55,912 bases of DNA from a virus, in IMG/VR virus record IMGVR_UViG_3300042691_008709, positions 1-55,912 of that record. The stretch is one strand, 5' to 3'. The notes below the pieces were generated by a model. The model was given only the letters and a program-made list of their open reading frames with translations, ran no database searches and was not told where the DNA came from. This document shows, piece by piece, positions 936-45,034 of this stretch. A program made the translations under genes and the position numbers. Position 1 is the stretch's first letter; each line of letters starts with the position of its first letter.

Positions 936-1280
936 ATGGTGTCAACTAATAAGATAAAGCCTTACGCAACATATAGTATAACTTACAATTTACAGCACAT
1001 GGAATTGTTTAGTGACGGAGAATATGATCCGATGGTGGATGCTAAGATATACGCTATGGATAATTTAGCTTATGACTCGGCAGGATATAGACTTCCATTT
1101 AGTTTACAATTAGGCTTATCGGCGCAATACGTGGATAGAAATAAGCAATTACTAGAAGATAAGAATAGAAAAACCATGAGATTATCTCAACTAATAACTG
1201 TAACTGTTATAGTTTGGCAGACGATAGAAGATTATCTATTTTTTGAAAGTGATGAAACAGGATGGTCGGAGTTAATGTAA
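936..1280 (+). CDS. Hypothetical protein, 114 aa
   Basis: Starts MVSTNKIKPYATYSITYN. The predicted protein is mixed alpha/beta with many tyrosines and a C-terminal segment (LSQLITVTVIVWQTIEDYLFFES) that could be a buried amphipathic helix rather than a true membrane span. No family recognised. It follows palindromic site 1 and has no clear terminator after it, so it probably heads the 936-3697 transcription unit. Confidence 0.5.
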   Translation: MVSTNKIKPYATYSITYNLQHMELFSDGEYDPMVDAKIYAMDNLAYDSAGYRLPFSLQLGLSAQYVDRNKQLLEDKNRKTMRLSQLITVTVIVWQTIEDYLFFESDETGWSELM

Positions 1281-1294
1281 ATAATAATAATAAT

Positions 1295-1591
1295 ATGGAA
1301 AAAGAACAATGGGAAATAGATTTAAGGGCTAAACTAGAATTAGAACTTGAAGATGGATATTATCAATTTGGTGGAGAGAAAAAAGGAGATTTATGTTTTG
1401 CTACTGGAAAACAAGGCGCAATAGAATTTTATGTGAAGTGGGAAAAAACAGTAAGAAATATTAAACACGGTATTGAGCCGATAATTAAAGAATGTGAGGA
1501 AGGAAAGTATGATTATTTAGGTCCCGCAACCGAGGATGATTTTTTAGAAGCAATGAAATTATTAACTAAAAGAAATGAATCAAACATATAG
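1295..1591 (+). CDS. Small protein with capsid-like C-terminal motif
   Basis: A 98-aa acidic protein starting MEKEQWEIDLRAKLELEL. An in-frame ATG at 1262 overlaps the upstream gene and is less likely. Near the C terminus it carries ATEDDFLEAMKLLTK, which matches ATEDDFIDAMKLLTK inside the major capsid protein (DNA 10949-10993). The match is 13 of 15 residues, and about 37 of 45 bases agree. I recognise no family for the rest. The shared segment could be a duplicated piece of the capsid gene, a capsid-mimicking peptide or a common binding helix. It overlaps the next small reading frame. Confidence 0.55.
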   Translation: MEKEQWEIDLRAKLELELEDGYYQFGGEKKGDLCFATGKQGAIEFYVKWEKTVRNIKHGIEPIIKECEEGKYDYLGPATEDDFLEAMKLLTKRNESNI

Positions 1592-1694
1592 TTATAGTAC
1601 TCATAGAAATTACTTTATGAATAGTACAGGACATTTATTTATAAATGAAGAAGGAGATTTATTAATTTATTACAGATTTGAATATGGCAAGTAG
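1575..1694 (+). CDS. Possible 39-aa protein
   Basis: Reads MNQTYSYSTHRNYFMNSTGH onward and ends YYRFEYGK. It overlaps the end of the gene before (to 1591) and the start of the gene after (from 1684), and so fills what would otherwise be a 92-bp gap. Composition is protein-like, with many Tyr/Asn. No family; supported only by context. Confidence 0.35.
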   Translation: MNQTYSYSTHRNYFMNSTGHLFINEEGDLLIYYRFEYGK

Positions 1695-10020: not shown

Positions 10021-11496
10021 ATGCCAACTTTAAATCCAGGTCAAACAAACCTAGTAAGAGGTACATTCTCAGCAGACTGTACTTTAGAGTCTGATTTAAT
10101 CAGAAATCAGCAAAAATTCCCTGCTATCCGTCAAATGTTAGAACGTGTGGATCAAAGACAATTAACTACTTTATTAACATCTGGAGCAGTAGGCCCTTAT
10201 GGTATTAATTTAAGTAAACCAACTAAGTTTGGTAAAGTAAAAGAAAGCCAAGCTATTGGAGATAACTCTTACCGTTTCAACGTTATGGGTCGTATTCAAA
10301 AAGCTGCAACTATCATCTCTCAAGTAGGTAGTTCAAACGCTGACGGTTCTTTCCAATTAATCGCTAAAGATAACTACGCGTACAAAGGACAAATGTGTGT
10401 TTTTTACGGAAATCGTTATTCTGCAATGGTTATGTCTGAGCCTACTAAGGTAGCATCAGGATGGTTATATAACTTCCAACACCCACAAAAAGAAGTATTC
10501 TCTTGGGCTACTCACGTTGCTGCTCAAGGTACAGGTACTTATACTTTCTTCCCATCTACAACAGGTTATGGTGAGAAATCTTTAAAAGGATATGGTCGTG
10601 ACCAATTCCCTGATACTTTCATCGTAGATATGACTACTCAACGTAAGACAGTTGCTATCTCTGGAGATGCTGCAACAGATGTATTATGGTATGAGTATAT
10701 GTCTTCTAACGGTCCAGTTAAAGGATGGAAATTCGAGAAAGTTCGTCAAGCAGAAGCTCAATGGGCTATGGAAAATGAATATGCTAAAATCTTCGGTATC
10801 TCTACTATGAAAAACACAGATGGCTCTCGTGCTGCTGTGGCTAACTTAGTTGATAACGAAACAGGTAATGGTATTATCATGGGTGACGGTATCGAAGAGC
10901 AAATCTCTGGCGGTAACGAATTATATGGTTCAGGTGTAAACGGTGAAGCTACAGAAGATGATTTTATTGATGCAATGAAATTGTTAACTAAGCAATCTGA
11001 TTCATCTACGTCAGGAGTTAATATCGTGTTTATGACAGGTATTGACGGATACTACAATGCTCAACGTAAAATGGCTCGTTTCGTATTAGCGCAAAACGCT
11101 CAATTAATGCAACAAGTACAAGGTGGAGCAGAAATCGAAGTAGGATACCACATTACAAAAATGAATTTCGCAGGAAGTTCAGTATGTTTTGTACAACATC
11201 CTTTATTTGATGATGAGTTACGTTTCCCTGAGAGAGGCAATGATGGTCAATTAATCATGTCAAGTACTTATATTGGTGGAGATTTAGGTTCATTTATGGA
11301 TTCTAACATCGAAATTATACCTAAAGGTGCTTACGGTGTTAATCGTTCTGACGTTAAAACTACTATTAATGGTATGACAGGTTTACCTGGAGATGCTATT
11401 TCGGAAGAGGATGCTTGGAAAATGGCGATGTTAAAACAAGATTTAATTGTTATTTACAACACTAAACGCTGGTGTATCATCCGTAAATCAGCTTAA
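10021..11496 (+). CDS. Major capsid protein (HK97-type, crAss-like)
   Basis: 491 aa, starting MPTLNPGQTNLVRGTFSADC. It sits directly after the scaffold, is followed by a strong terminator, and uses noticeably more C-ending codons than its neighbours (AAC, TTC, ATC), as expected for a highly expressed gene. The fold should be HK97-like, with an N-terminal arm, an E-loop region and an insertion around residues 290-330. That region contains ATEDDFIDAMKLLTK (about residues 310-324), a motif also found in the small protein at 1295-1591. No separate protease gene is visible nearby. Assignment rests on context, size and the crAss-like neighbours. Confidence 0.85.
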   Translation: MPTLNPGQTNLVRGTFSADCTLESDLIRNQQKFPAIRQMLERVDQRQLTTLLTSGAVGPYGINLSKPTKFGKVKESQAIGDNSYRFNVMGRIQKAATIISQVGSSNADGSFQLIAKDNYAYKGQMCVFYGNRYSAMVMSEPTKVASGWLYNFQHPQKEVFSWATHVAAQGTGTYTFFPSTTGYGEKSLKGYGRDQFPDTFIVDMTTQRKTVAISGDAATDVLWYEYMSSNGPVKGWKFEKVRQAEAQWAMENEYAKIFGISTMKNTDGSRAAVANLVDNETGNGIIMGDGIEEQISGGNELYGSGVNGEATEDDFIDAMKLLTKQSDSSTSGVNIVFMTGIDGYYNAQRKMARFVLAQNAQLMQQVQGGAEIEVGYHITKMNFAGSSVCFVQHPLFDDELRFPERGNDGQLIMSSTYIGGDLGSFMDSNIEIIPKGAYGVNRSDVKTTINGMTGLPGDAISEEDAWKMAMLKQDLIVIYNTKRWCIIRKSA

Positions 11497-11512
11497 TTAG
11501 ATTTATAATAAT

Positions 11513-11548
11513 AAAAACCCCATAGCATTAATTTGTTAGGGGTTTTTT
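11513..11548. terminator. Bidirectional terminator after capsid gene
   Basis: AAAACCCC pairs with GGGGTTTT around a loop of about 17 bases, with T runs available on both strands. It ends the capsid transcript from the left and the reverse-strand cassette from the right; the last codons of the 11536 gene lie inside the hairpin. Confidence 0.8.
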
Positions 11549-11910
11549 AGTTTAGTTAACATTCCGTTAAATAATGATTGCGCTGTAATAATATCAACTT
11601 TTTCTCCTTTTTGATTTTGTAATATACCTATACTGTCCACGCTAAAGAAAAGTTTAATAAGTACTTCAAGATATATTTTTTCATAAATACTTTCATCTCT
11701 AGCGTCAAAATCAGCAGCATAAATAACGTATCCGTATCCGTTTTCAAAAAAATCAACTCTAGCGTGAATCATAGTGTCATTTAATTTCTTTAATAGCCAT
11801 AAGCTTATCTGCCTATTTGGAGAGTTCGGAAATACAACTTGATTATTACTTAGTTTAGATAAACTGTCTATAAATGTTTGTAAAAACTCTTTAGTTATTT
11901 TATTTTCCAT
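11536..11910 (-). CDS. Reverse-strand cassette protein, 124 aa
   Basis: Reads MENKITKEFLQTFIDSLSKL. Predicted alpha/beta, with an amphipathic N-terminal helix and a segment VDFFENGYGYVIYAADFDARD that looks like a beta hairpin. No known family. It is the last gene of a four-gene leftward cassette inserted between the capsid gene and the next head gene, all of which are on the other strand. That placement is typical of morons carrying defence, exclusion or host-fitness functions, but its role is unknown. Confidence 0.6.
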   Translation of the reverse strand: MENKITKEFLQTFIDSLSKLSNNQVVFPNSPNRQISLWLLKKLNDTMIHARVDFFENGYGYVIYAADFDARDESIYEKIYLEVLIKLFFSVDSIGILQNQKGEKVDIITAQSLFNGMLTKLKNP

Positions 11911-11951
11911 ATTTGTTGATTTTTTTGTAATTGTAAACTATTTTTAAAAAT

Positions 11952-12056
11952 TTAATTACTTCTGGTAAGTTTTCTAATTCTATATTTTTTTATAAAATCA
12001 TATCCAACTGTTTCCCTGATAATTGTATGCTCGTCTATTAATTCTAATGGATTCAT
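11952..12056 (-). CDS. Possible 34-aa cassette protein
   Basis: Reads MNPLELIDEHTIIRETVGYD onward, ending RIRKLTRSN: an acidic-then-basic helical peptide. Its ATG overlaps the stop of the 28-aa frame upstream (ATGA), a sign of coupled translation. With its partner it fills most of the 280-bp space between the two larger cassette genes. Function unknown. Confidence 0.4.
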   Translation of the reverse strand: MNPLELIDEHTIIRETVGYDFIKKYRIRKLTRSN

Positions 12057-12139
12057 TTAAGTATAGCTATTAAATCGTTTTCAGTAAATATTATTACTCC
12101 TTGAGTTTGAGGGTATTTTATTTTAATTGTTATCTGCAT
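12053..12139 (-). CDS. Possible 28-aa cassette protein
   Basis: Reads MQITIKIKYPQTQGVIIFTE onward, ending NDLIAILK: a beta-strand-like start and a short helix. It is coupled to the next small frame through an ATGA overlap. Its very short length makes the call tentative; the coupling and protein-like composition are the support. Confidence 0.35.
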   Translation of the reverse strand: MQITIKIKYPQTQGVIIFTENDLIAILK

Positions 12140-12191
12140 TTGATAATCTATTTCTTTTGATAGTCATTTTTCGGTTTATTTGATATACAAG

Positions 12192-12434
12192 TTATTTTAA
12201 TAGCTTAATTAAAGCGTCATATTTATCAGCTTTTATCTTTAGTTTGTCTAAGTATTGATTATCAATAGTTGTGGCGTAAAAAGCATAGTCTTTTAATATT
12301 TTGGATAATACGTATGCTTCTGGAGTAGATAGTTTTTTTAATTTTCCATCGTTAAAAAGTTTTGTTATTTTAATAATGGTTGGAGTTAAACTGTTTTGAT
12401 GCGGTCTAAATTTCTCAGCGCCTTTTGTTTTCAT
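12192..12434 (-). CDS. Reverse-strand cassette protein, 80 aa
   Basis: Reads MKTKGAEKFRPHQNSLTPTI; basic and helical, with a Lys-rich middle (LFNDGKLKKLSTPEAYVLSKILKDY). It could bind nucleic acid, although no helix-turn-helix is convincing. It is the first gene of the leftward cassette, directly behind the extended promoter at 12454-12484 and palindromic site 3. If any cassette gene is regulatory, this one is the best candidate. Confidence 0.6.
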   Translation of the reverse strand: MKTKGAEKFRPHQNSLTPTIIKITKLFNDGKLKKLSTPEAYVLSKILKDYAFYATTIDNQYLDKLKIKADKYDALIKLLK

Positions 12435-12453
12435 AATTTCTTAGTTTTAATAC

Positions 12454-12484
12454 TTAAACGTAGATAATTTAAAAAGGTTACATT
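12454..12484 (-). promoter_or_regulatory. Extended promoter for reverse cassette
   Basis: On the minus strand, ATGTAACCTTTT is followed 18 bp later by TACGTTTAA, ahead of the 80-aa gene. It is one of the best copies of this promoter class; palindromic site 3 ends 4 bp upstream. Confidence 0.6.
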
Positions 12485-12487
12485 TTT

Positions 12488-12503
12488 AATTCAAGTTTGC
12501 ATT
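12488..12503. promoter_or_regulatory. Palindromic operator-like site 3
   Basis: AATTCAAGTTTGCATT (minus strand AATGCAAACTTGAATT followed by AAAAA). It lies between the leftward cassette promoter and the rightward -7 box at 12511, so one bound regulator could control both directions. Confidence 0.6.
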
Positions 12504-42696: not shown

Positions 42697-43830
42697 ATGC
42701 CAGGATTCAACGGAATAAAATCAGTAGTAGATGCGGAACTTGAAGGAAGGGTTCGCAATTATCAGTTTAGGAAAAATCCTACTCAGGCTACTACTGCTGG
42801 AATTTGGTTTGATTTTGCTAATGCTGCTGGTAATCCTAAAGCTAAACAATGGTTTGACGCGTCACCATTAACTGCTACTCAAATATATCAATCAACAGAT
42901 TTAGGTTTATATCACGGACCAAATGTATTACCTGCTCAAAAGCATATTAGAACAACAACCGTATGGAATCCAACAGTAACAGCTTTGCCAATGCAGATGT
43001 TATTATTAGATTATTTAATGTATTACCCAACATTTGATGATTCAGAAACATCCGCACAAGCAACTATAAATACACCGCCGTCATCCGCCGAGTTTACAGC
43101 ATCTTATACAAACGATTTACTTACATATACCACTACTACATTTATTCCTGCAAATTTATTGACAGGAACTAAAGTAAGTGTATCAACTACAGGCACTTTA
43201 CCATTAGGATTAAGTGCTACTGATTATTTTTTAATTAGAGTAGATGATTCTACCTGTAGACTAGCAACAACTTTAGACAATGCTAGAAATGGAGTTTATG
43301 TAAATATTTTAAACAACGGAAGTGGAACTCATAAAATAAATTGGCTATTACCAAGATGGACTAATGGAGATGGCGTTCAAATGATGGCTATTACAACTGG
43401 AGCTAGAACAGGCGGACAAACTTTTACTGTTTCTTATACGAATAGTGATGGTGTAGCTGGTAGGACTTCTAGTATTATCACTCAAAATACATCAAGTGTA
43501 TTAGGAACTATAACAAACTCTGCATTAGCTGTAGGACAAAATACAGCAGGGCCATTCATAAGTTTACAATCAGGAGATAGAGGCGTTAGAAGCATAGAGT
43601 CGGTTCAAATGAACGGAGTTGATACAGGATTCTTTACAATAGTATTAGTAAAACAATTAACAGAAACTCAAATTAGAGGTATAGATTCACCTGTAGAAAA
43701 AGACCATTTATTACATGGCGCAGAACTGCCAAGAGTATATGATGATGCTTTTTTAGGATTTATAGGCTTACCAAATGGGACACTAGCAACTGCTGTTGTT
43801 ACAGGTAATCTAAAAGTAATATGGAATTAA
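42697..43830 (+). CDS. Appendage protein, paralogue A
   Basis: 377 aa, starting MPGFNGIKSVVDAELEGRVR. Pairs with the next gene: both contain an inserted beta domain with a shared LTGTxVxxxTTxTLP pattern and end that domain with SGTHKINWLLPRWTNGDGVQ (here) or IGTHTITWLLPRYTNGAGVQ (next gene). Outside the insert the two share a similar fold: N-terminal FANAAGNPKAKQWFD and a C-terminal strand ending VIWN. Likely two copies of a surface or tip protein that diverged after duplication. Confidence 0.55.
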   Translation: MPGFNGIKSVVDAELEGRVRNYQFRKNPTQATTAGIWFDFANAAGNPKAKQWFDASPLTATQIYQSTDLGLYHGPNVLPAQKHIRTTTVWNPTVTALPMQMLLLDYLMYYPTFDDSETSAQATINTPPSSAEFTASYTNDLLTYTTTTFIPANLLTGTKVSVSTTGTLPLGLSATDYFLIRVDDSTCRLATTLDNARNGVYVNILNNGSGTHKINWLLPRWTNGDGVQMMAITTGARTGGQTFTVSYTNSDGVAGRTSSIITQNTSSVLGTITNSALAVGQNTAGPFISLQSGDRGVRSIESVQMNGVDTGFFTIVLVKQLTETQIRGIDSPVEKDHLLHGAELPRVYDDAFLGFIGLPNGTLATAVVTGNLKVIWN

Positions 43831-43849
43831 TAATTAAAAAATAAATACA

Positions 43850-45034
43850 ATGGCTGGAATAGCATCACACGATCAATTAATAAACGCATTAAGTAATGGT
43901 CAAACGTTTAAGAATAATTATGGTAAAAACTTTAATCCTACATCGCCAGCCGTAGCTAATGAGTTTCACACTCTTTTTAGAGGTGCTGGTAATCCTCCTG
44001 CTGATGCTTTATTTGATACAGGTACTACAAGAACATTTGTTCCTGTATTAGATAATACAGCAAGCGCTTCTACCATTCAACATGGAGGAAATGTTCAAGC
44101 GTCAAACTATTATAAGTATTTATTGAACATGACTGCTGTTAGTGCTGCTGCTACTGTTGTCCCTGGCGTTGTAAAACTAATTGATGTAATTGGATATTAC
44201 AGAATGGCTACTGCTGATTTGCCAACATTAACAGCTCAAGCATGTACTAATACATTAGGCAGAAGTGATACATTCACTGCAAATGCAGGCACAGATGTAT
44301 GTACTTACACTTCAACGGCTTCAATACCAAGTAATTTATTAACAGGAACAAGAGTTCGTTTTACAACAACCACCACGTTACCTGCTCCTTTAGCTACCTT
44401 AACTGATTATTATTTAATTAGAATGAGCGATGGTACATTTGAAGTGGCTTCATCTTATGCTAATGCTATTGCAGGAACTCAAATTGATATTACAGATGCG
44501 GGAATAGGAACGCACACTATTACGTGGTTACTCCCAAGATATACAAACGGCGCTGGAGTACAAGCTATTATTTTTAATCCTGCCGCGACAGCATTAGGAG
44601 CTGTTACTCCCAATTTATCATTTCCTGATTACACTAACGCAGCACAAGCTACAGGTAGGGCTACACCTACTGTATTACCTGTAGGTAAATCAGCAGCTTC
44701 AAACTCTCATATACTTTATACAGGTGCTACTGGTACAGGTAAATATAATTACACGGTACCTTTAATGTCTGGAGATAATGGTATAGCTCAAATTAATTCA
44801 CTTCAGCATTCAGCTAACTATTCAACAGGAATGTACACGGTAGCTTTAATTAAAGAAATTACTGAAATTCCTTTGTCTACTTTAGGATTAGCTGCTGAAA
44901 GGAACTTATTAACTGAGATGCCATCATTACCTAGAATTTACGATAGTGCGGCTTTATATTTATTATACGGTAGTGGTGTTAATACTCCTGCTTCATCAGC
45001 AATAAGCGGTACAATTACAACGGTTTGGAATTAA
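43850..45034 (+). CDS. Appendage protein, paralogue B
   Basis: 394 aa, starting MAGIASHDQLINALSNGQTF. The insert (residues about 135-230, with NLLTGTRVRFTTTTTLPAPL and IGTHTITWLLPRYTNGAGVQ) and the final TTVWN strand match paralogue A. The N-terminal segment differs, as expected for two parts of one complex. It ends 1 bp before the next gene. Virion surface location inferred from the cluster. Confidence 0.55.
   Translation: MAGIASHDQLINALSNGQTFKNNYGKNFNPTSPAVANEFHTLFRGAGNPPADALFDTGTTRTFVPVLDNTASASTIQHGGNVQASNYYKYLLNMTAVSAAATVVPGVVKLIDVIGYYRMATADLPTLTAQACTNTLGRSDTFTANAGTDVCTYTSTASIPSNLLTGTRVRFTTTTTLPAPLATLTDYYLIRMSDGTFEVASSYANAIAGTQIDITDAGIGTHTITWLLPRYTNGAGVQAIIFNPAATALGAVTPNLSFPDYTNAAQATGRATPTVLPVGKSAASNSHILYTGATGTGKYNYTVPLMSGDNGIAQINSLQHSANYSTGMYTVALIKEITEIPLSTLGLAAERNLLTEMPSLPRIYDSAALYLLYGSGVNTPASSAISGTITTVWN

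Follow-up and report, generated by a model that had tools for sequence, protein, structure and literature searches.

The 98-aa protein encoded near the start of the window (the whole 55.9-kb virus record analysed here, from an environmental, Crassvirales-like crAss-like phage) ends in a predicted helix that matches a segment of the major capsid protein (MCP) of the same phage at 13 of 15 residues, and this match is real and very rare. We tentatively propose that the gene is accessory and that its tail is a mimic of the MCP helix, probably captured, which competes for a contact of the MCP. We hold this statement as a whole at somewhat less than even confidence and the function taken alone at less than that; we infer the descent of the tail from an MCP, and the binding partner and the benefit of the helix are speculative. 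The features on which the argument rests are the following.

1280..1577, + strand: stretch present in the window and missing from the corresponding site of close relatives (alignment with L009, L001 and L003)
1295..1591, + strand: 98-aa accessory protein with an N-terminal domain and a capsid-like C-terminal helix (open reading frame; purifying selection on the N-terminal domain)
1304..1474, + strand: N-terminal domain, EQWEIDLR..L...DG.Y...TGK.G.IEF.V (alignments and model)
1526..1570, + strand: codons of the capsid-like helix, ATEDDFLEAMKLLTK, residues 78-92, predicted helix 80-96 (alignment and model)
1574..1690, + strand: next short gene (MNQTYSYSTHRNYF...), present in relatives
10021..11496, + strand: major capsid protein of the Crassvirales type, HK97 fold (Pfam, PHROG and structural match)
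10948..10992, + strand: codons of the MCP helix, ATEDDFIDAMKLLTK, residues 310-324, predicted helix 312-325, followed by a predicted strand 334-339

The order on the + strand is small ORFs, exonuclease, terminase, portal, a 383-aa protein and the MCP, and the window's terminase is about 25% identical to those of gut crAss-like phages. The small gene closely precedes the block that runs from the exonuclease to the MCP and is co-directional with it. The first-pass annotation had described a 98-aa early protein; the ORF (1295-1591, + strand) and its length stand, but the label 'early' was without support for a gene placed directly upstream of the structural block in the same direction and was dropped. 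At the beginning of the record (26-262), a 78-aa ORF has an ExoX-like C-terminal motif (26.1 bits against a Pfam cut-off of 26.5) and is 98% identical over 68 residues to a sequence in L003.

Extent and rarity of the match

A recount confirmed 13 of 15 identical residues and 37 of 45 identical bases, with the MCP segment at 10948-10992, one base off the previously given 10949-10993. The flanks are unrelated, as had been noted: neighbouring 15-base blocks agree at only 4-7 bases. The best ungapped alignment (GPATEDDFLEAMKLLTKRNESN / GEATEDDFIDAMKLLTKQSDSS) covers 22 residues at 68% identity and scores 40.3 bits, with an E of 5e-6 against the window's set of 63 proteins. In 100 locally shuffled copies of this set, the small protein reached at most 30.1 bits and no two 15-mers agreed at more than 11 residues, so that the MCP-like sequence in the 98-aa protein exceeds these decoys, as would be expected if it derives from the MCP. 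All-against-all decoy scores above 40 bits arose in 19 of the 100 sets, and the top pairs listed among them consisted of extended repetitive sequence and not of short segments with high identity. The earlier view that chance hardly explains the match is valid for a single window; as the scan takes in many windows, a look-elsewhere discount applies.

The pair is the sole one of its kind in the all-against-all comparison of window proteins, in which no other small ORF was found to copy a virion protein. A profile of the whole MCP, run against all frames of the loci, recovered the small protein at E 0.02 besides the true MCPs, and the remaining frames gave chance-level matches only (E 3 or more). 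With a profile of the MCP segment, searched against 6341 stop-to-stop frames taken from the window and the loci, the two best non-MCP matches were the small protein (E 6e-6) and its homologue in the relative L008 (E 0.14).

An 11-residue motif, EDDF-[hydrophobic]-[DE]-AMK-[hydrophobic]-[L/F], was matched in IMG/VR (2.9 million viral contigs, stretches translated) by six stretches, all of them MCPs of this group, and by none in 257 Gb of genome contigs (GTDB). It is therefore no common low-information helix, a possibility that the first-pass annotation had named as grounds for refutation. The relaxed ten-residue form TE-x-DF-x-[DE]-AM-[KR] was found in eight IMG/VR stretches, including the six MCPs; outside MCPs, it occurred only in the syntenic L008 homologue and at the start of one unrelated 64-aa cysteine-containing protein beginning with MTEDDFLDAMKKLGHRVYYCPTC. 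Since this last occurrence is independent, such a helix can arise by itself. A similar helix with DD--A-KLLT is present in ribosomal protein S2 (E 0.4).

Structure of the two segments

The Pfam match (PF23898 Crass_capsid, 49 bits against a cut-off of 27, E 4e-13) clearly identifies the protein at 10021-11496 as a Crassvirales MCP, the HK97-fold comparison agrees, and the protein also matches PHROG 11589 (major head protein). The best Foldseek matches of its model were 7qof, 7qoh and 7qoi (E 1e-12 to 4e-10); superposition on 7qof_A, the MCP of phiCrAss001, gave a Z of 10.1 over 282 residues but an rmsd of 21.8, the model being of low confidence (mean pLDDT 48.8, poor overall). The matched segment lies in a better-predicted patch (pLDDT 58-76). 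The aligned stretch of phiCrAss001 gp32 (PDB 7QOF) reads LLEDALYEL and differs from the motif of the window's MCP, which is therefore specific to this phage group. In phiCrAss001, the A-domain of the MCP contacts an auxiliary protein, and a pocket at the centre of each hexon holds head-fibre proteins (PMC10172136). From its place in the fold, the predicted helix 312-325 would probably belong to the A-domain.

The model of the small protein (mean pLDDT 75.7, tail 64-68) consists of a helix (5-17), a hairpin (23-26/34-37), a second helix (39-68) and a separate helix (80-96), and its N-terminal domain is thus predicted to comprise a helix, a beta-hairpin and the start of the long helix. The edges of the similarity are those of the helix, and the match covers one helix including its Thr N-cap. 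Both helix faces are preserved, at buried as well as exposed positions, and the previously suggested readings as a peptide mimic and as a shared docking helix would both be compatible with this. While the MCP helix 310-324 has a counterpart in the small protein, the latter is without the HK97 fold and shares this single helix only. Foldseek returned weak matches for the small protein; the top ones, SPP1-like small terminase oligomerization cores and prefoldin subunits in the PDB, have only a helical shape in common with it (E >1, probability <=0.25) and are not relatives.

An optional gene and its family

The gene is optional, since several close relatives have an empty site. The preceding gene runs straight into the NQTYSYS gene in L001, L003, L012, L013 and L015-L018; among these, L012 shares its contig with L003, and L018 with L001. 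The cleanest empty site is that of L009 (...GTTAATGTA|AATCAGACATATAG...), which lacks about 298 bases that the window carries between AAT triplets (1280-1282 and 1578-1580). The C-terminal end of the 98-aa protein is ...GPATEDDFLEAMKLLTKRNESNI, and its last codons (SNI, stop) fall within the sequence of the short gene at 1574..1690, in sequence that the insert-free relatives also have. The difference may have originated either by insertion in the window or by loss in the others.

In L008, whose MCP is 88% identical, a syntenic 110-aa homologue is 53% identical to the window protein over the first 60 residues, and profile searches added homologues in L026, L027 and L039, giving five members in all. 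They share the N-terminal domain of about 55 residues; in the L039 copy an in-frame TAA precedes it. Between the window and L008 this domain shows a dN of 0.39 and a dS of 1.4 (dN/dS about 0.28) and is thus under purifying selection, which speaks for a real protein. The domain is rare and in no library searched: the window protein had no match in Pfam, PHROGs, NCBIfam or PADLOC, and the domain profile only a chance-level one in the PDB (E 0.43). The small protein had no match among phages and reached only E 2-9 among plasmids, and the domain profile had no match in genome contigs; its lack of a match in eight reference phages (seven Crassvirales and one Flavobacterium phage) is a weak result, the search being without a positive control.

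The tails vary. That of L026 is short, that of L027 consists of about 115 residues of other sequence and L039 has almost none; none of these three carries the helix. The L008 tail, VTEQDFVDAMREIMW, is identical to the MCP at 7 of 15 residues and to the window's small protein at 6 of 15, and keeps TE-DF--AM without the KLLTK half, so that the full match is restricted to the window protein among the five members. The refutation proposed beforehand, loss of the motif from relatives of both proteins, came out divided: homologues of the MCP keep the segment, whereas homologues of the small protein are without the full match.

Origin of the tail and readings weighed

The first-pass annotation had considered a recent segment duplication. 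Given the residues and the codon usage of the window, independent codon choice would leave 36.2 of 45 bases identical, against the 37 observed (P>=37 = 0.44), and different codons are used at 5 of the 13 identical residues. Identity to the best of six MCPs gave a P of 0.60; the longest uninterrupted identity, 21 bases shared with the L006 MCP, is borderline (P 0.055 over the six MCPs). No nucleotide similarity above the codon-usage expectation, as a recent copy would show, was thus found between the 98-aa protein and the MCPs. The bases therefore add no evidence of copying from the phage's own MCP, and a recent duplication of it was rejected as without support from the codon test. The MCP segment itself is identical at 38-41 of 45 bases to those of L005-L008; as MCPs of the genus differ nearly as much, an older capture, or one from a relative's MCP, fits and is possible. 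At the protein level, the helix of the small protein is closest to the MCPs of its own genus and becomes less similar as MCP distance grows: it agrees with the MCP at 14 of 15 residues in L006, 13 in its own genome, 12 in L005 and 11 in L007, and at 9, 7 and 5 in the farther L019, L022 and L023 (MCPs 55-49% identical). Between the small gene and the MCP the helix has a dN of 0.07 against a high dS.

Our tentative proposal is that an optional accessory gene, flanked by two small genes and located ahead of the terminase-portal-capsid block, encodes a C-terminal helix at the end of a linker that would reproduce one complete helix of the C-terminal HK97-fold part of the MCP, with its N-cap Thr, its acidic first turn and both its faces. 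About 15 codons would most likely have been captured from the MCP gene of a phage of the same genus, not as a recent copy of the phage's own MCP, and the helix would then have been retained. Held by the N-terminal domain, it could offer the surface of the capsid helix to the usual partner of that helix and compete for it; this partner might be an adjacent MCP subunit or precursor, an auxiliary protein, a head-fibre protein or a capsid-sensing host factor.

Coincidence or simple convergence is nearly as likely as this mimicry: the amphipathic TE-DF--AM tail of the family, an ordinary helix unconnected with the capsid, would have drifted to an MCP-like sequence, and it would have been noticed because many windows were read. 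The base identity is that expected for independent codons, L008 retains the first half of the helix only, an unrelated protein has MTEDDFLDAMKKLG, and the S2 helix offers a further parallel. Moreover, an all-against-all E of about 3e-4 (5e-6 x 63 proteins) is expected occasionally over thousands of windows. However, an identity of 13 of 15 was absent from 100 decoy proteomes, only MCPs of the phage's own group carry the motif in IMG/VR, the matched MCP is encoded by the same phage, and conservation extends to buried as well as exposed positions. It is rather unlikely that the tail is a captured relic, namely an MCP fragment fused by illegitimate recombination and without a role at the capsid. 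Free drift alongside the synonymous divergence should have altered its residues, whereas 13-14 of 15 are kept; this objection would fall away if the capture were very recent and its source a relative that has not been sampled. In line with a relic, small genes come and go at this locus, the tails within the family are interchangeable, and the last codons of the window protein derive from flanking sequence.

We consider it improbable that the whole tail stems from a longer piece of the MCP (MCP 288-321, GDGIEEQ...TEDDFIDAMK) that has eroded to the helix in the window. Such a piece would be better kept in L008 (GDGIIHQI...TEQDFVDAM), where GDGIIHQI precedes the helix in the same order as GDGIEEQI in the MCP, the combined alignment of the tail with its own MCP falls on the same place of the MCP over 39 columns (shuffle P 0.003) and the profile match spans positions 6-39. 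Taken alone, however, the GDGI part is weak, with a P of 0.04-0.05 against the region selected from the MCP of either the window or L008 and 0.20 against the whole MCP of L008, and the stretch before the helix in the window protein shows no similarity to the MCP (P 0.8). An extension of the window's match to GDGI...EQ (HGIE...) was rejected on this value, and the model predicts a helix there. The L008 tail (L008:1444-1608) also fits PHROG 12302, a family of unknown function (E 0.004). Inside the helix, homology to the window protein accounts for most of its resemblance to the MCP; the L008 evidence thus indicates that the TE-DF--AM helix is a feature of some family members and is only modest as independent support for a capsid link.

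For a partner shared with the MCP there is a precedent in CapRel-SJ46, one of several bacterial defences that sense capsid proteins, which senses the MCP directly (PMC9712102) and has a second trigger in Gp54, a 66-aa protein of phage Bas11 (PMC11578894). Gp54 is small and non-essential and engages the same host sensor domain as the MCP. It differs from the small protein of the window in being without sequence or structural similarity to the MCP, and no sensor is known for the window phage. If the mimic reading is true, phages displaying a piece of their own capsid could titrate or mislead capsid sensors or tune capsid assembly. The wider version, an accessory family that displays one capsid helix on a carrier as a decoy for capsid-sensing defences or as an assembly regulator, with a tail tracking the phage's own capsid, is doubtful. 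If the match is a coincidence, it usefully cautions about short, nearly identical segments that turn up when many genomes are read.

Some further observations concern other loci. The unrelated protein with an independent capsid-helix motif (L048:141-335) is the 64-aa cysteine-containing one, starting MTEDDFLDAMKKLG. The region directly behind the capsid gene is a second variable site, with about 70 bases in L001-L003 against 0.5-0.9 kb in L004-L006; in the window (11497-12496), it holds antisense ORFs at 11536-11910 and 12192-12434 (- strand) between the MCP and the next + strand gene. The two neighbouring genes at 42697-45034 form a pair of diverged tandem paralogues whose aligned blocks are about 36-50% identical.
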